Shown here piece by piece: positions 7,733 to 15,986 of a stretch of 53,647 nucleotides of DNA (the stretch's first letter is position 1; each line of letters begins with the position of its first letter). Made by a program: the position numbers and the translations under genes. This DNA is from Bryobacterales bacterium (GTDB lineage: Bacteria > Acidobacteriota > Terriglobia > Bryobacterales > UBA6623): assembly GCA_028819235.1 (NCBI GenBank), contig JAPPMC010000197.1, positions 1 through 53,647 of the forward strand. Direction: 5' to 3'. The notes under the pieces are model-generated. The model had not been told where the DNA came from. It saw nothing but the letters and a program-made list of their open reading frames with translations, and searched no databases.

Positions 7733-9103
7733 TTGCCACCGCTTGACCCGAATCCCGCCGCAGCCACGCTGGATACCATCGTTGCCCTCTCCACCCCGGT
7801 CGGGAGGTCTGCGATCGGCGTGGTTCGCCTTTCCGGCCCCGCAGCTCTAAAGATCGCCGGCAGGCTCCTGCGGCGCGGTGCGCTTCGATCCCGCCGTGCG
7901 AGGCTGGACGTGCTGCTCGGAACCGACGGCGAGCCAATCGATGAAGTCGTCTGCACATCCTTTCCGCGGCCCCGCAGCTACACAGGCGAGGATGTCGTAG
8001 AGATCTCCTGTCACGGCTCCCCTCCGGTACTTAGATTCGCCGTGGAGCGCTCGTGCGAACTGGGTGCGCGGATTGCCGAGCCCGGAGAGTTCACGCGGCG
8101 GGCGTGGCGGAACGGACGCATGGACCTCGTGCAGGCAGAGGCCGTCCGGGACTTGATCGACGCAACCACGCTCTACCAGGCCCAAGTCGCCTCTCGCCAG
8201 CGTTCGGGAGCGCTCTCCGGCAAGCTGCGGGCCTGCAAACGCGGAGTCCTTGAGCTGATTGCGCGGCTCGAGGCCGGCATCGACTTCGCGGAAGATGACG
8301 TCGAAGTCGAGGACGGCACTGCGATCTCGGCCGCGATCGACCCGCTGCTGGCAGCCGTGGAACGGCTCGTCGACGGCTTCGCCCTCGGCAAGGTCGTCCG
8401 CTCCGGACTGAGGCTGGCCATCGTCGGCCGGCCGAACGTGGGCAAGTCCAGCCTGTTCAACCGCATGCTCGAGCGTGACAGGGCAATAGTGAGCCAGATT
8501 GCCGGCACGACACGAGACGTGATCAGCGACACGGCCTCATTCGACGGCATTCCGGTGGAACTGGTTGACACGGCCGGGATCCGCGCGAGCGGCGACGAGA
8601 TTGAGACGGCAGGCATCGAGCGGACTTGGCAGTCGCTGCAGGACGCTGACTTCGCTCTTGTGGTCGTGGACCTCTCGACCGAGGAATGCCCCGACGATCT
8701 CGACCTGTGGAGAAACGTCAGATCCGCCTGCCCGGCCCTTCTGGTCGGCAACAAGCGCGACTTGCCCCGCCGCTGCGAGTCCAAGGAAGCCATGGTCGAA
8801 GTGTCGGCCCTCACGGGAGAGGGCATTGATGGCCTCCGCACCCGTGTACGCGAGCGGGCCCTGCCCGGCCTTGAGGCGATGCGGGACAGTTCCCTCGTGA
8901 CGAACATCCGGCAGGAGGCGCTGCTGCGACGGTCCAAGGGAGCGCTGCAGCGGGCCGCCGAGGCGGCCTCCGCCGGAATTCCCCACGAGATGCTCCTGCT
9001 GGACCTCTACGAAGCGCTGGAGCCTCTCGACGCCATTACTGGCGCAACCACCATCGAGCAGGTCCTAGACGAGATCTTCTCGACGTTCTGCATCGGCAAG
9101 TGA
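7733..9103 (+). CDS. mnmE: tRNA modification GTPase MnmE
   Basis: With MnmG, MnmE makes the 5-aminomethyl-type modification of wobble uridine in certain tRNAs. The 456-residue protein has the N-terminal tetrahydrofolate-binding domain (DTIVALSTPVGRSAIGVVR), a helical domain and an inserted G domain: GRPNVGKSS (G1, about 230-238), DTAG (G3) and NKRD (G4). It ends in the diagnostic CIGK, whose Cys is catalytic. The start is TTG 7733. Length is normal. mnmG is not in the window. Confidence 0.96.
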   Translation: MPPLDPNPAAATLDTIVALSTPVGRSAIGVVRLSGPAALKIAGRLLRRGALRSRRARLDVLLGTDGEPIDEVVCTSFPRPRSYTGEDVVEISCHGSPPVLRFAVERSCELGARIAEPGEFTRRAWRNGRMDLVQAEAVRDLIDATTLYQAQVASRQRSGALSGKLRACKRGVLELIARLEAGIDFAEDDVEVEDGTAISAAIDPLLAAVERLVDGFALGKVVRSGLRLAIVGRPNVGKSSLFNRMLERDRAIVSQIAGTTRDVISDTASFDGIPVELVDTAGIRASGDEIETAGIERTWQSLQDADFALVVVDLSTEECPDDLDLWRNVRSACPALLVGNKRDLPRRCESKEAMVEVSALTGEGIDGLRTRVRERALPGLEAMRDSSLVTNIRQEALLRRSKGALQRAAEAASAGIPHEMLLLDLYEALEPLDAITGATTIEQVLDEIFSTFCIGK

Positions 9104-9833
9104 TTCAGCTTGGGGCAGCGCGAGAGCGTGGCCGCCCGAGCGTGCCCGTCCGATTGCATTCGCAACTGTGTGGGCCTACCGGCCTACTTCCGATCTGATT
9201 GGCAGCGGGGCTGCGGCGCCAGTCTCCGGCGCTGGGCCCTAATCTCGCACCTGGTTACTTTCGCAGCCGCCCTTGGGCGGGAGGCTGCCCAGCCGGATCG
9301 TGCCACCGACCACGATCTGTAGCGAGCGCTTGACGGCCGAGGACGGCGACCGTGTCAACGCCCGGCAGGATTCGCCGCCTAGGATTGCGGGTCCCCGGTC
9401 ATCCTCGACACGCCCGCGTACACCGTGCTCGGGGGCTCTGGCACGACCCGCATGAAGGGCAGCGCAACACCGACCTACCCCAGTGGGTCATCACCCATCA
9501 GCCCCCAAGCAGGCGCATCGGCCTAGCGCAGATCGGTAGAACAGCGAGATGCCCCGCAAGTCCCACCAGAAACGAATTCCAGCAAGGGATCCGCCGCCGT
9601 CCGGATCGTTTGGATTTTCGGGGCGCCGGCAACCAACAGGGCCGGCATGCCCCTGACCCGCCCTCCAAGAGGAACGGTAGATTGCATTGAATAGCGCCCA
9701 CGGACCGTTCGACACCGTGGATGCCATTTAGAACGCACCTGCGTTCGGCCCGGCGACACTAGCCGCCGTACGGAATGCCAGCTTCCCCGTCGCCACGGCC
9801 AAGGGGAGCCCTGGGCCCTGCCCGTCACCCCGC
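9104..9833. other. Gene-free stretch between mnmE and purS
   Basis: About 730 bp with no supported gene. The open frames (70-112 codons) have no recognisable motif, no good ribosome-binding site and shifting frames. Short protein-like runs in one frame near 9400-9520 end at a stop and may be the remains of a decayed gene, but I cannot identify it. A possible hairpin lies at 9263-9288. Confidence 0.45.
9263..9288 (+). terminator. Hairpin downstream of mnmE, possible terminator
   Basis: GCAGCC (9263-9268) pairs with GGCTGC (9283-9288), and an inner GCC/GGC pairing is possible. It lies 160 nt past the mnmE stop and has no U tract. Being imperfect and distant, it is only a candidate. Confidence 0.25.
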
Positions 9834-9861
9834 TTGTGCGGTACGGCGGCGGAATTATAAT
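9834..9861 (+). promoter_or_regulatory. Promoter of purS, apparently leaderless
   Basis: A perfect -10 hexamer TATAAT (9856-9861) lies six bases before the TTG start codon of purS. A weak -35 (TTGTGC, 9834-9839) is 16 nt upstream. The expected transcription start coincides with the first codon, so the mRNA would have essentially no leader. Confidence 0.6.
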
Positions 9862-9867
9862 TGGACC

Positions 9868-10119
9868 TTGAAGGCAGTTATCCACGTTGCCCCCAAGCAG
9901 ACTGTCCTTGATCCTCAAGGCCGTGCAATCACGCGGGCACTGCAGTCTCACGGGCACAGTGGGATAGTTGATGTCCGCCAAGGCAAATACTTCGAGGTCG
10001 AGCTGCGGCCCGGGCCGGGTAACGAGGATGTCTTGCGGGAACTGGAGCAGATCGCCAGAGATGTCCTCTCTAACCCGGTTATCGAGGATTACGAGGTAAC
10101 GCTGCTGAACGATCAGTAG
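9868..10119 (+). CDS. purS: Phosphoribosylformylglycinamidine synthase subunit PurS
   Basis: This 83-residue protein matches PurS: N-terminal KAVIHVAPKQTVLDPQGRAI, then VRQGKYFEVEL and the C-terminal VIEDYEV. PurS dimers bridge PurL and PurQ in the FGAM synthase complex, passing ammonia from glutamine to FGAR in purine synthesis. The start is TTG 9868, fixed by family alignment and the promoter just upstream. purQ, purL and purC are not nearby. Instead the next gene, 16 nt after the stop, is a degenerate GlmS-like protein. Confidence 0.92.
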   Translation: MKAVIHVAPKQTVLDPQGRAITRALQSHGHSGIVDVRQGKYFEVELRPGPGNEDVLRELEQIARDVLSNPVIEDYEVTLLNDQ

Positions 10120-10135
10120 CGAGGTGAGCCGTGAG

Positions 10136-11992
10136 ATGCCTGGCATCGTCGGATACGCAGGGCGCAAGCAGGCTGCCCTGGTCGTGCTGGAGGGCCTGCG
10201 ACGGCTCGAGTACGGAGGCTACGACCACGCCGCCTTGGCGGTCGGCTCCTCTCGGCGCATCCACTTCCGGCAAGCAAGCGGAACGCTTCGAAATCTGGAG
10301 ACCTCAGTCCGACTGAATCCCGTCCGGGGGACCACAGGGATCGGCCAGATCCGCTGGTCGCGCCGAGCGCAGCTCTGGGCATCCCCCGAACGGCACGGCA
10401 ATGCGGAACACCTGAGTGTCAGGGTCGCTGTCGACGGCAGCCCAGGAACACTCGACACTCTCTGGGAGCAGATACCCAATGGCGCCTCGCAGCGGGAGGC
10501 GACACCCGCATCCGACGCACTCGCCCTGCTCGTCCAGACCATCCGCAGGCCTGGCGAGTCGCTAGAAGAGGCCGTGCGCCGGGCTGCCAGGCACGTCGAC
10601 GGCATCTGCACGTTCGCGGCGATCGCCGCAGACGATCCTGGCAAGATCGTCGCTGTCCGACTGGGAAGGCCTGCCGTCGTGGGGCTGGGCATGCAAGAGA
10701 ACTTCGTGGCCTCGGACAAGCCGCCAATCCTGCGCCACACTCGCGAGATGATCCAGCTCGAGAACGGGGATCTCGCAGTGGTGACCGTCCGAGGTGTGGT
10801 CGTGATGGACGGCAGGGGCAGAAGGGTCTCGCGCACAGTGCACCACGTTCTGTGGGACCCGATGATGGCTGAGAAGAGCGGCTACCAGCACTTTGTGCTG
10901 AAGGAGATCTATGAGCAGCCTCGCGCCATCCGCGACACGGCGCTGGGCCGGATCGACGAGGGGACCGGAAGAGTCGTGCTTGACGAACTCGGGGTGACCC
11001 TGCCCGAACTGCGGCAGATCCGGCATCTGAACGTAATCGGCTCGGGAAGCTCGTGGCACGCGGCGCTGCTCGCAAAGAGCGCCGTGGAACGGCTGGCGAG
11101 AGTGCACGTGAACGTTGCGGTGAGCAGCGAGTTCCGGTACAGCGACCCGGTGATCGACGAACAGGTTCTGACGCTGGTCGTCAGCAAGTCCGGGGAGACC
11201 GCGGACACGCTCGCTGCCCAGCAGCTGGCTCACGAGCTCGGCTCCGGGAGCATCGCGATCTGCAACGCCGCGGATTCCACTATGGCCCATAACGCGCGCG
11301 GCGCGATTCACACGAATGCCGGGCCGGAACTCGCAGCGGTGTCCACGAAGGGCTTCACCGCGCAGCTTGCCGCGTTCTACCTGTTCGCCATGTACCTTGG
11401 CCAGGCCCGCGGGACGCTCGACGCCAAGCAGTCCAAGCTACGGGCGAGAGACATCCTCGACCTGCCACGGCTGGTCGAGCGGGCGCTCGAACTGGCTGGG
11501 CAGTGCGAGCGCTTGGCAAACCAGCTGGCGCACGCCGGGAAGGCGCTCTACCTAGGCCGGGGTGTGCACTTTCCGATCGCCCTCCAGGCCGCGCGAATGC
11601 TCTCGGAGTTGGCGCACGTCCCCGCGGAGGCATGTCCGGCGGGCGAGCTTCCGCAGACGCCCGCGGCCTTGATCGATCCCGGAATGCCCGTCGTCGTGCT
11701 TGCGACGGTGGACCGCCAACTCCCCTCGAGCCGACTTCGCTATGAGAGGACGCTCGCGCAAGTGCGCGACCTGACCTCGCAGCGAGGCTGGGTGATCTGC
11801 ATCGCCGGCGAGGACGACGACATAGTGGGTGACTATGCCCACGAGGTGGTCCGCGTGCCCACCATGTGCGAACCCCTTCAGGCGGCAGTCTCCCACATTC
11901 CCCTGCAGCTGCTGGCCTATTACACGGGCGTCCAGCGCGGCTGCGACGTGGACCACCCCCGCGATGTCGGCCGCAGCGTGACCACCACCTGA
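10136..11992 (+). CDS. GlmS-like protein with degenerate glutaminase and isomerase sites (probable pseudoenzyme)
   Basis: The 618-residue protein has full GlmS architecture: an N-terminal class II glutamine amidotransferase-like domain (1-235) and two SIS phosphosugar domains (about 290-440 and 460-610). GAGGTG at 10121-10126 fixes the start at ATG 10136, so it begins MPGIVGY where glucosamine-6-phosphate synthase begins MCGIVGY: Pro2 replaces the nucleophilic Cys. RWSRR (73-77) replaces RWATH, and Asp100 replaces the oxyanion Asn. Sugar-phosphate binding looks kept (GSGSSWH 302-308, SKSGETADT 350-358, STKGFT 403-408). By eye the isomerase residues are mostly lost: E. coli Lys485, His504 and Lys603 correspond to Met488, Gln507 and Arg613, while Glu491 is kept. 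It cannot be a normal glmS; a phosphosugar sensor or altered enzyme is inference. It is probably cotranscribed with purS. Confidence 0.85.
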   Translation: MPGIVGYAGRKQAALVVLEGLRRLEYGGYDHAALAVGSSRRIHFRQASGTLRNLETSVRLNPVRGTTGIGQIRWSRRAQLWASPERHGNAEHLSVRVAVDGSPGTLDTLWEQIPNGASQREATPASDALALLVQTIRRPGESLEEAVRRAARHVDGICTFAAIAADDPGKIVAVRLGRPAVVGLGMQENFVASDKPPILRHTREMIQLENGDLAVVTVRGVVVMDGRGRRVSRTVHHVLWDPMMAEKSGYQHFVLKEIYEQPRAIRDTALGRIDEGTGRVVLDELGVTLPELRQIRHLNVIGSGSSWHAALLAKSAVERLARVHVNVAVSSEFRYSDPVIDEQVLTLVVSKSGETADTLAAQQLAHELGSGSIAICNAADSTMAHNARGAIHTNAGPELAAVSTKGFTAQLAAFYLFAMYLGQARGTLDAKQSKLRARDILDLPRLVERALELAGQCERLANQLAHAGKALYLGRGVHFPIALQAARMLSELAHVPAEACPAGELPQTPAALIDPGMPVVVLATVDRQLPSSRLRYERTLAQVRDLTSQRGWVICIAGEDDDIVGDYAHEVVRVPTMCEPLQAAVSHIPLQLLAYYTGVQRGCDVDHPRDVGRSVTTT

Positions 11993-11999
11993 GACTGCG

Positions 12000-13025
12000 C
12001 TAGCGGCGCTTCAGAGTCGGGCGCTCGTCCTCGGCTTCCTCGTCGGTCGGCTCGACGTCAATGTCGTCGGTCGGAATCGTGCCGCCCGTGCTGGTGCGGC
12101 GCAGGCGCGGCTTGTTCGGATCCTCCGTGGTCTCCTTGCGCCGCAGGACCATCTGCTCCAAGCGCGCCTTCACCTCTAGGAACTCCGAAGTGTTCACTAC
12201 GTATTCGGTCTTGGTCGGTAGCAGTTGATCGATCGTCTTCTGTGTCTTCTTGATCCTCGAGCCGTGCGGCGGGTGGCTGCGGAACAGCTTGGACATCGTT
12301 CCCGGCCGTCGCTTCTCGTCCGCGAGCATCTTCTCGAAGAAATCGATGAAGGAAGTCGGGTCGTATCCCGCCTTGTACAGGTACTGGACTCCCAAGAAAT
12401 CCGCCTCGCCCTCCATAGTCCTGGAGAACTTCAAGAACGTCATTGGGATCAGGAAGCTGCTCGCCTGGTAGATCCCGTATCCCGTCCAGCCCCCGATGAA
12501 CAGCAGGGGAATCGTCGCGAACTGCACTAGCTGGCCCTTCGTCGCTTGGCGTGTGCCGTGGCGGGCCGCCACGTGCGCGATTTCGTGGGCCATCACTCCG
12601 GCCAGCTCGGACTCGCTCTCGGCTCGCAGCATCAGGCCCGAATTGACGAAGAAGAACCCTCCGGGCAACGCAAAGGCGTTGACGTCGCTGCTGTCGATGA
12701 GCTTTATGGTGAACGGAACCTTCGCGTCGGAGTTGCGGACCAGATTCTGCCCGACGCGGTTGACGTATTCGGCGATGATCGGATCGTCAACGATCTTCGA
12801 GTGCCGTTCGACATCCTGAGCCATGCTCTTGCCTAGGCGGATTTCTTTCTCAATGGAGTAGAAGTTCACGCCCTTGCCGACGTTGCGCTCACCGATCGCC
12901 TCGACATCCTGCCTGGCGGACTTGGGCTTCTTCTTCGTCTTGCTGCCTTCATCGTCCTTTGCCAGCACGGAGCCAGCCAGCGTCAGGGCCAAGACGAACG
13001 GAAGCCATTTGCTCGCACGCATCAT
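12000..13025 (-). CDS. Secreted M48-family zinc metalloprotease
   Basis: This 341-residue protein has a signal peptide (about 1-22, ending AGSVLA) and the M48 core: HEIAH at 147-151 and the ExxxD motif at 206-210 (EGEAD). These are the catalytic Glu and zinc ligands of BepA/YfgC-type periplasmic proteases that look after outer-membrane protein quality. The TPR tail of BepA is missing; a low-complexity Lys/Glu/Pro-rich tail ends the protein. It converges with the GlmS-like gene 7 nt away. The leader contains a 16-bp perfect palindrome (13049-13064). Confidence 0.9.
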   Translation of the reverse strand: MMRASKWLPFVLALTLAGSVLAKDDEGSKTKKKPKSARQDVEAIGERNVGKGVNFYSIEKEIRLGKSMAQDVERHSKIVDDPIIAEYVNRVGQNLVRNSDAKVPFTIKLIDSSDVNAFALPGGFFFVNSGLMLRAESESELAGVMAHEIAHVAARHGTRQATKGQLVQFATIPLLFIGGWTGYGIYQASSFLIPMTFLKFSRTMEGEADFLGVQYLYKAGYDPTSFIDFFEKMLADEKRRPGTMSKLFRSHPPHGSRIKKTQKTIDQLLPTKTEYVVNTSEFLEVKARLEQMVLRRKETTEDPNKPRLRRTSTGGTIPTDDIDVEPTDEEAEDERPTLKRR

Positions 13026-13305: not shown

Positions 13306-14424
13306 ATGGAAAGGTCGAAGATCCGCGCCGAGTTCCCGATCACGGGCCGCTACGCCTACTTCAACAACGCAGCGATCGCCCCGCTGCCCCGGGCCGCCGC
13401 GAAGGCCATGTCGGAGCAGGCGGATTCAGCGGCCACGGAGGGCGTGCATGGCTACGCCCGCTGGGCCAACGAAATCGACGGACTGCGCGTCGAGACGGCA
13501 GCCATGCTCGGCTGTGACGAAACCGAGGTTGCGATCACCAAGAACACGTCCGAGGGCCTCTGTGCAGTGGCGGGCGGGCTCGACTGGCGACCCGGAGACG
13601 TAGTGGTCGGCCTTGAGACAGACTTCCCTGCCAACGTCGTGCCTTGGCGGGAGCTGCAGGGTCGGCGGGGCGTGCGGTTCCGGAGCCTGGAGCTGAGGAA
13701 CGGTCGAATGGAGCTCGAGGATCTGGACCGCGCATGCCGTGGGGCGCGGCTCGCCGCCCTCAGCTACGTCCACTTCCTGACCGGCTTTCGGTGGGACCTT
13801 GCGGCTGTGGGGGAGGTTTGCCGGCGGAGGGGCTGCCTGCTGGTGGTCGACGCTGTCCAAGGGATGGGGCCGTTCCCGATCGATGTCAAGAGCTGCGGAA
13901 TCCACGCACTCTCCGCGTCAGGCCACAAGTGGCTCGTCGGGCCCGAGGGCACGGGCCTGCTCTATATCGATCGCGACCTTATGCCGCAGATTCCGCCTAT
14001 CGAACGGGGCTGGGGCAGCATGGCGGGCTCCGAATCCTTCCGGCACGACCTTGGACTGCACCCCAGTGCCCGACGCTACGAGTGCGGCACGCTCAACGCG
14101 GCAGGCTGCGCCGCTCTGGGCGCCTCAATGCGACTCCTGAACAGCATCGGTAGCGCTTGGGCTAGCCGTGAGGTCAACGGCTTGGCCTCACGGCTGGCAG
14201 AGGGGGCCGCCGAGCGCGGGTACCGGCTGGCGGCGGAACGAGACAAATCGACCGGGTCTGGGATCGTCTCGCTGCGGAAGCCGGGCGTGGATGCCACTGC
14301 CGTCGTGGGGGAGCTGCTAGGGCGCCGCGTGTCGGTGGCCGAGCGCATGGGGTGGATCCGCGTGGCTCCGCACATCTACAACACAGCCGAGGAAATCGAC
14401 AGGCTACTGGCCCTGCTTCCGTAA
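13306..14424 (+). CDS. PLP-dependent class V aminotransferase family protein
   Basis: This 372-residue fold-type I enzyme is of the cysteine desulfurase/kynureninase/isopenicillin-epimerase group. FNNAAIAPLPRAA (19-31) is the typical N-terminal substrate loop, and TSEGL (81-85) would bind the PLP phosphate. Asp182 (VDAVQGMG) should pair with the pyridine nitrogen, and Lys208 in SGHKW forms the Schiff base. The SufS/IscS active-site Cys loop is not evident, so a desulfurase role is not supported. The substrate is unknown. GAAGG at 13295-13299 precedes ATG 13306. The gene is 23 nt upstream of a GH32 glycosidase and co-directional. Confidence 0.88.
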   Translation: MERSKIRAEFPITGRYAYFNNAAIAPLPRAAAKAMSEQADSAATEGVHGYARWANEIDGLRVETAAMLGCDETEVAITKNTSEGLCAVAGGLDWRPGDVVVGLETDFPANVVPWRELQGRRGVRFRSLELRNGRMELEDLDRACRGARLAALSYVHFLTGFRWDLAAVGEVCRRRGCLLVVDAVQGMGPFPIDVKSCGIHALSASGHKWLVGPEGTGLLYIDRDLMPQIPPIERGWGSMAGSESFRHDLGLHPSARRYECGTLNAAGCAALGASMRLLNSIGSAWASREVNGLASRLAEGAAERGYRLAAERDKSTGSGIVSLRKPGVDATAVVGELLGRRVSVAERMGWIRVAPHIYNTAEEIDRLLALLP

Positions 14425-14447
14425 CGGCGGACCAGAGATTCAGGGCT

Positions 14448-15986
14448 ATGATGCGGAGCAACGTGCGCGTCTCAAGGATTGCACTCCCGATCGCCGCTGC
14501 CGCCGTCTTGGCGTTCTCCCAAACCGTGACCTATAGGGAACCGTTCAGGCCGCGTTTCCACTTCACGCCGACTGTCAACTGGACGAACGACCCGAACGGC
14601 CTCGTTTACCACCGGGGGGAGTGGCACCTGTTCTACCAGTTCAACCCGTTCGGCGACGTGTGGGGCCACATGAGCTGGGGCCACGCTGTCAGCGCGGACC
14701 TGTACCGCTGGAAGCACTTGCCGGTGGCTCTGCCCGAGGAGGGCGAAGTGATGGCGTTCTCGGGCAGTGCGGTGGTCGACCGCCGCAATACGTCGGACTT
14801 CGGGCGCGACGGCGAGCCGGCGATGGTGGCGATCTACACCAGCCGCACGCCGACCGACCAGACGCAGTCGCTGGCCTATAGCACTGACATGGGGCGCTCA
14901 TGGTCACGCTATTCCGGGAACCCTGTGCTGGACCACGAGGATCCGGCATTCCGCGACCCGAAGGTGTTCTGGCACGAGGCGACGGGGAAATGGGTCATGA
15001 TCGTCGCGCTGGCCGAGCAGCGCAAGGCCGCGCTGTATTCGTCGCCGGACCTGAAGTCGTGGACCCACCTCAGCGATTTCGGGCCTGAGGGCGCGCACCC
15101 CGTCCGTAACTGGGAGTGCCCCGACCTCTTCGAGCTGCCCGTCGAGGGCGAACCTGGGCAGAGCAGGTGGGTCCTTCAGGTGGACTCAGGCAGGGGGCAT
15201 CCCTGGCTTGGTTCCGGATGCCAGTACTTCATCGGAGAGTTTGACGGCCGGCGCTTCCGTAACGACAACCCTCCGGAGACGGCGCTGTGGCTGGACTGGG
15301 GCAGGGACTTCTACGCAGCGCAGTCGTTCTCGAACGTACCAGCCGAGGACGGCAGGAGATTGGTGATTGGCTGGATCAGCAACTGGATGTACGCCCGAGA
15401 GATGCCCACATCGCCGTGGCGGGGCGGCCAGTCGGTCGCCCGGGAACTGGCACTGCGGCGATTCCCGGAGGGCCTGCGGGTCGTTCAGCGGCCAGCAAGG
15501 GAAATCGAGACGCTTCGCGAAGCCTCCATCAGCCTGCGCGATCTGTCCGTCAGAGAGGCCAACGACCGGATCCGCCGCGAGGGCTTCCGCGGAGACTCAC
15601 TCGAACTTGTGGCTGTCCTAGACGTCGGCTCGGCGGACGACCTCGGCCTGCGAGTCCTCCAAAGCGACGCTCAGGAGACCGTCGTGGGCTTCACGGCGTC
15701 CCCTGCGGAGGTGTACGTTGACCGTTCCAAGTCCGGCAACGTGGACTTCCACGACACATTCGCCGGGCGACATTCAGCGCGATTGGACGCTCCGGACGGC
15801 CGGCTCCAGCTGCACGTGCTGGTGGACCGCTCGGTCGTTGAGGTGTTTGCGGGGAAGGGCAGGGTTGCGATAACCGACCGCGTATTCCCCGATCCCTCAA
15901 GCACAGGCCTTTCGGTGTTCGCCAAGGGAGGGGAGGCACGTGTAGTCTCCCTCGATGCCTGGCAAATGCGGTCGGCTTGGGAGTGA
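14448..15986 (+). CDS. Secreted glycoside hydrolase family 32 (fructan hydrolase)
   Basis: GH32 enzymes release fructose from levan, inulin or sucrose with retention. Here the three acidic motifs are intact: WTNDPNG with nucleophile Asp48, FRDPKVF with Asp170 (transition-state stabiliser), and ECPDLFEL with acid/base Glu223. A signal peptide (about 1-25, from ATG 14448) and a C-terminal beta-sandwich with LHVLVDRSVVEVFAG complete the 512-residue protein, a normal length. Levanase or exo-inulinase is most likely, but motifs alone do not separate these. A longer in-frame start at 14352 would overlap the aminotransferase and spoil the signal peptide. It converges with the HNH nuclease gene. Confidence 0.93.
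   Translation: MMRSNVRVSRIALPIAAAAVLAFSQTVTYREPFRPRFHFTPTVNWTNDPNGLVYHRGEWHLFYQFNPFGDVWGHMSWGHAVSADLYRWKHLPVALPEEGEVMAFSGSAVVDRRNTSDFGRDGEPAMVAIYTSRTPTDQTQSLAYSTDMGRSWSRYSGNPVLDHEDPAFRDPKVFWHEATGKWVMIVALAEQRKAALYSSPDLKSWTHLSDFGPEGAHPVRNWECPDLFELPVEGEPGQSRWVLQVDSGRGHPWLGSGCQYFIGEFDGRRFRNDNPPETALWLDWGRDFYAAQSFSNVPAEDGRRLVIGWISNWMYAREMPTSPWRGGQSVARELALRRFPEGLRVVQRPAREIETLREASISLRDLSVREANDRIRREGFRGDSLELVAVLDVGSADDLGLRVLQSDAQETVVGFTASPAEVYVDRSKSGNVDFHDTFAGRHSARLDAPDGRLQLHVLVDRSVVEVFAGKGRVAITDRVFPDPSSTGLSVFAKGGEARVVSLDAWQMRSAWE

Follow-up and report, generated by a model that had tools for sequence, protein, structure and literature searches.

What becomes of a glucosamine-6-phosphate (GlcN6P) synthase, GlmS, once it has lost the cysteine with which it should attack glutamine, and how does a bacterium live with no other copy? 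GlmS is a drug target. According to PMC5902328, which cites Milewski 2002, bacteria that form peptidoglycan cannot do without it; Cys1 is the nucleophile of its glutaminase, while Glu488, His504 and Lys603 are residues of its isomerase (PMC9272926). The question is raised by a gene of a Bryobacterales bacterium, in a stretch of 53,647 nucleotides (the window; contig C51) that belongs to a genome of 7.19 Mb in 318 contigs, 98.5% complete, which we label G000. A preliminary description, made from the letters of this DNA, had taken the gene product for a GlmS-like pseudoenzyme. The features relevant to the argument are the following, with residues numbered as in the E. coli enzyme where this is stated.

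7733–9103, forward strand: mnmE, locus marker and divergence control
9775–10119, forward strand: purS, directly upstream of the glmS-like gene, marker of the ancestral locus
10121–10126, forward strand: GAGGTG, Shine-Dalgarno-like (direct reading)
10136–11992, forward strand: glmS-like gene, 618 residues, the sole full-length GlmS-family protein of G000 (profile and protein searches)
10136–10855, forward strand: degenerate glutaminase (class II amidotransferase) half, residues 1–240, nucleophile cysteine absent (alignment)
10139–10141, forward strand: Pro2, codon CCT, at the position of the nucleophile cysteine, E. coli Cys1 (direct reading and alignment)
10856–11989, forward strand: SIS (isomerase) half, Pfam SIS in two stretches
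11597–11599, forward strand: Met488, at the position of E. coli Lys485 (alignment)
11606–11608, forward strand: Glu491, the conserved E. coli Glu488 (alignment)
11654–11656, forward strand: Gln507, at the position of E. coli His504 (alignment)
11972–11974, forward strand: Arg613, at the position of E. coli Lys603, the Schiff-base lysine (alignment)
12000–13025, reverse strand: M48 metalloprotease (BepA-like), convergent downstream marker

Is the cysteine truly missing? The translation, read directly, begins with MPGIVGY behind the GAGGTG motif, as had been described. An alternative start that would supply the cysteine is ruled out by the upstream DNA, no reading of which contains a Met-Cys start; initiation at a GTG that lies in frame at 10124 would do no more than prepend MSRE. 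Nor can sequencing error be held responsible: a second genome, G002, with 97% identity, carries the same residues, and eight further genomes carry the same lineage. 'Bryobacterales bacterium isolate jk18x25bins.29' is the closest relative with a name, at a protein identity of 97%.

By its overall features the protein is a GlmS. It resembles the E. coli enzyme (PDB 4amv, 1jxa, 2j6h) in length and in two-domain architecture; the alignment with that enzyme spans all 618 residues (E=4.5e-101), and the GlmS profiles are matched above their cut-offs (TIGR01135, 484.9 bits against 418.05; NF001484, 499.3 bits against 381). The NagB-II and GlmD deaminases, which consist of a SIS part alone, akin to the GlmS isomerase half, differ from it by having no glutaminase half; their profiles give 76.8 against 430 and 71.4 against 580 bits, and a protein of 618 residues is too long for them. 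Among the Pfam models, SIS domains alone are found, with no match to those of amidotransferases. It is in the residues that the likeness to GlmS ends. Against 22 canonical GlmS sequences, the glutaminase half displays C1P, R26G, T76R, H77R, N98D and D123A, so that of the glutamine site Arg73 is kept while His77, Asn98 and Asp123 are replaced; the isomerase half displays K485M, H504Q and K603R, leaving Glu488 as the only survivor of the set formed by Glu488, His504, Lys603 and Lys485. The alignment bears out what the preliminary description had noticed by eye, namely the change of RWATH to RWSRR, the replacement of the oxyanion asparagine by aspartate, and the correspondence of Met488, Gln507 and Arg613 with Lys485, His504 and Lys603. 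With Cys1, His77 and Asn98 gone, its view of a pseudo-amidotransferase was right: it is near certain from these residues that glutamine hydrolysis is lost, and very likely that the Schiff-base chemistry of the G000 protein is lost as well. Standard GlmS profiles of the TIGR01135 type would therefore very probably misname it, assigning an activity that it lacks.

Other residues persist. Glu488, Trp74, Gly99, Ser303, Ser347, Ser349, Thr352, Ser401 and Lys403 are kept, as are most contacts of the sugar-phosphate site; the phosphosugar-binding motifs, which had been described as intact, are nearly so, with Q348K, T302S and V399A as exceptions. This retention must not be overrated: canonically invariant sites as a whole are kept equally well, and enrichment tests, one kind for catalytic loss and one for retention of the phosphate site, were mostly not significant when set against other invariant positions. 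An AlphaFold2 model of the G000 protein, built from five sequences, had low confidence (pLDDT 57).

The same lineage occurs throughout the genus. All ten genomes with an assembled locus harbour the form without cysteine, with proline in G000 and G002 and alanine or serine in the other members; loss of the cysteine is thus conserved among the orthologues. The eight genomes beyond G002 encode proteins 56–69% identical to that of G000. Seven of them have an intact start devoid of cysteine; in G010 a contig end divides the gene between two contigs, the second of which holds the start, likewise without cysteine. His77, Asn98, Ala75 and His86 are lost in every member that has the gene, while W74, E488, S303, S347, S349, T352 and S401 are kept throughout the clade, where A299G, T302S, R333S, G398A, V399A, L484R, Y497C and N600D have become fixed. 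The isomerase residues behave differently from one species to the next: G004 keeps all four, G007 is without Lys485, G008 without Lys603, the G001 group without Lys485 and Lys603, and G000 and G002 without Lys485, Lys603 and His504. No orthologue keeps the complete catalytic set, since none has Cys1. On the alignment, the glutaminase site is destroyed in all members of the genus and the isomerase residues were lost stepwise; the claim that most of the latter are gone fits G000 and G002, as a late state, and does not hold for the genus. In a tree of four proteins (YidC, Jag, MnmE and M48) G004 groups with G007 and the remaining members stay together, so that a single loss of Lys603 is possible; branches within the genus are weakly supported, and the tree of GlmS itself disagrees.

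Could the genus have discarded the glutaminase alone, and have kept a GlcN6P synthase fed by ammonia? The glmS-like protein is the only GlmS orthologue present, GlmM is retained, and the four residues of G004, or the three of G007, would befit such an enzyme, which is possible for these two species. As an account of the whole genus it is unlikely: three of the four isomerase residues, including ones that the literature names as such, have gone in G000 and G002 and two in the G001 group, and the sister genus does without glmS altogether.

A search of genomic DNA extended the survey, using a pattern for a GlmS start without cysteine in which the first base of codon 2 is not T. Among 257 genomes of the order it found nine of the genus and G197, and among 396 genomes of the phylum only the genome of the window itself; the pattern is blind to serine codons beginning with T, so that G008 (MSGIVGY) went unlisted and serine variants elsewhere could be missed. 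G197 (L065:1501-3026) has serine in place of Cys1, with the other glutaminase residues canonical in the 508 residues covered. It was rejected as an independent loss, and is probably an error or an isolated change.

Where does the gene come from? In the genus, purS and glmS are adjacent, with mnmE before purS, as in G013 and G016, family members that possess a canonical GlmS, and the GlmS clade of the genus is monophyletic and groups with the GlmS of the family on a long stem of 0.64 substitutions per site. To judge from locus and tree, the glmS-like gene has descended vertically from glmS, in place at the ancestral mnmE-purS-glmS locus, and is no extra paralogue. Its surroundings are housekeeping genes, and the neighbours give no hint of function. 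The proteins of the genus, that of G000 included, are 44–48% identical to canonical GlmS of the family, for 54–57% between the MnmE of the same pairs of genomes and about 68–77% among the canonical GlmS themselves; the pattern in this lineage is, on these comparisons, one of a burst of change with later constraint.

That constraint can be measured. Pairwise maximum likelihood estimates of dN/dS, restricted to close relatives with the losses already in common and leaving out pairs with saturated dS, gave 0.050 for G000 and G002 and 0.036–0.047 within the group of G001, G005, G006 and G009, and a value of 1 was rejected (2dlnL about 180–293). Constraint acts on both halves, and more strongly on the SIS half (0.023–0.032) than on the glutaminase half (0.058–0.088). 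For G000 and G002 the neighbouring genes yield 0.078 (yidC), 0.082 (jag), 0.084 (mnmE), 0.131 (purS), 0.208 (rnpA) and 0.023 (M48), so that, M48 excepted, the glmS-like gene evolves under tighter constraint than these housekeeping genes. That the gene might be decaying and on its way out could be argued from the stepwise loss of residues within the genus and from its deletion in the sister genus. This is scarcely credible, however, when a dN/dS of 0.05 persists after the losses, when the constraint exceeds that of most neighbours and when, of nine relatives, all but G010, whose gene is broken by the end of a contig, have an intact full-length frame. We rejected decay, in agreement with the preliminary description, which had argued from the full-length frame. 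With catalytic residues gone and purifying selection kept, the protein has the sequence traits of a pseudoenzyme.

The preliminary description had envisaged a second, canonical glmS elsewhere in the genome, and this expectation failed. Searches of G000 with the protein itself and with TIGR01135 found no second full-length GlmS, and protein searches of ten genomes of the genus found no canonical glmS. Most of these assemblies are fragmented, and G003 lacks both mnmE and glmS, which marks an assembly gap and disqualifies it as a genome that lost glmS. A canonical gene that drafts have failed to capture is nevertheless very unlikely, as it would have to be absent from ten genomes of 87–98% completeness, among which G008 is a single contig.

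Loss of glmS goes further elsewhere in the family. In G014, which the four-protein tree places as sister to the genus, the gene has been cleanly deleted (L074:9123-9154, contig G014:C1): about 30 bp separate purS from M48, and the order yidC-jag-mnmE-purS-M48-aminotransferase is preserved, without glmS, on a contig of 4.4 Mb. In G015 (L075) and G017 (L076) purS is followed by a suf-like cluster, again with no glmS, whereas their congener G016 keeps a canonical one.

GlcN6P presumably remains necessary to these bacteria, because each of the 13 family genomes tested, whether it has GlmS or not, gave a GlmM match above the cut-off. A whole genus with only a glutaminase-dead GlmS, next to a sister genus that has deleted it, and with GlmM kept in both situations, implies another route to GlcN6P. 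The best candidate is a SIS-only protein, similar to the GlmS isomerase and related to NagB-II, which occurs in all those genomes of the family that have no catalytic GlmS. It retains the equivalents of Lys485, Glu488, His504 and Lys603; its gene in G000, separate from the glmS-like one, is at L056:9519-10802 (contig G000:C106). Like its close relatives, it matches NF046059 (NagB-II) below the cut-off. Its co-occurrence with GlmS loss is suggestive only, because few genomes of the family keep a canonical GlmS. NagA-like proteins, encoded by all family genomes tested, would offer salvage of GlcNAc as an alternative source. Giardia has an anabolic GlcN6P deaminase, of a different family (NagB) and in a eukaryote, that makes GlcN6P from Fru6P and ammonia without GlmS (PMC4281351). 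Akkermansia muciniphila, which has a GlcN6P deaminase, also lives without a catalytic GlmS and needs GlcNAc (PMC5902328); there glmS is absent, while here a disabled orthologue is conserved. The supply route is uncertain, because the NagB of Akkermansia formed no GlcN6P under physiological conditions (PMC5902328).

No bifunctional GlmU was found above cut-off in the 13 family genomes, carriers of canonical GlmS included. A separate, archaeal-GlmU-like nucleotidyltransferase gene adjoins a phosphomutase-like gene (G000:C155:51277-51915, G000:C305:44982-45695; L060:7073-10062), and in G004 such a nucleotidyltransferase lies two genes from the glmS-like gene.

What, then, is the old GlmS for? On the evidence of sequences, most of them from draft genomes, the genus probably obtains its amino sugars in another way and uses the protein for something else. 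We put at about one half the probability that its own glmS has turned into a pseudo-amidotransferase, kept as a sensor or partner that binds a sugar phosphate, with GlcN6P coming from elsewhere. We prefer this reading because the sugar contacts and Glu488 persist while the residues of the chemistry go. GlmS catalysis would have become dispensable, after which one genus deleted the gene and the other kept a protein that is no longer a glutaminase; the latter would still fold, oligomerise and bind Fru6P or GlcN6P, and would regulate, without catalysis, the supply of amino sugars. GlcN6P itself would most likely be made by the SIS-only protein with free ammonia, or else come from salvage of GlcNAc by way of NagA. 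The narrower proposal that the former GlmS is the conserved sugar-phosphate sensor or regulatory partner of this very protein is doubtful.

A repurposed enzyme is a serious rival, if a tentative one, because the phosphate site is retained no better than other invariant sites are. The SIS half would in that case use Glu488 as a base in another reaction on a sugar phosphate, one that needs neither Schiff base nor glutamine, for example an aldose-ketose isomerisation of the enediol type. Strong selection on the SIS half, an invariant Glu488 and the eight changes fixed in the clade, from A299G to N600D, would all suit this, and the isomerase of human GFAT2 is documented to be active without glutamine (PMC7948480). 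Against it, Lys485, His504 and Lys603 are all changed in G000; the isomerase residues differ from species to species, which would be strange if a single new reaction had been conserved; and a PGI-family protein, found in 13 of 13 genomes tested, leaves no obvious gap to fill, and for this reason the glmS-like protein was also discarded as a stand-in for a missing PGI.

If the narrower proposal, in which the SIS-only protein makes GlcN6P from ammonia and the former GlmS is its sensor or partner, is true, bacterial amino-sugar synthesis would here be uncoupled from glutamine. We found nothing relevant on GlmS pseudoenzymes in the open-access literature. Beta-lactam synthetase, a relative of class II amidotransferases without the cysteine, has kept a degenerate glutaminase domain after loss of the nucleophile, and is related to asparagine synthetase, not to GlmS. 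The series from G004 to G000 forms a graded, natural loss of isomerase residues that can be matched with activity. Near the glmS-like locus we also observed a GH32-like glycosidase gene, at 14352–15986 of the window and at L058:13304-17402 in G008, where it is followed, by eye, by genes resembling those of a sugar ABC transporter.
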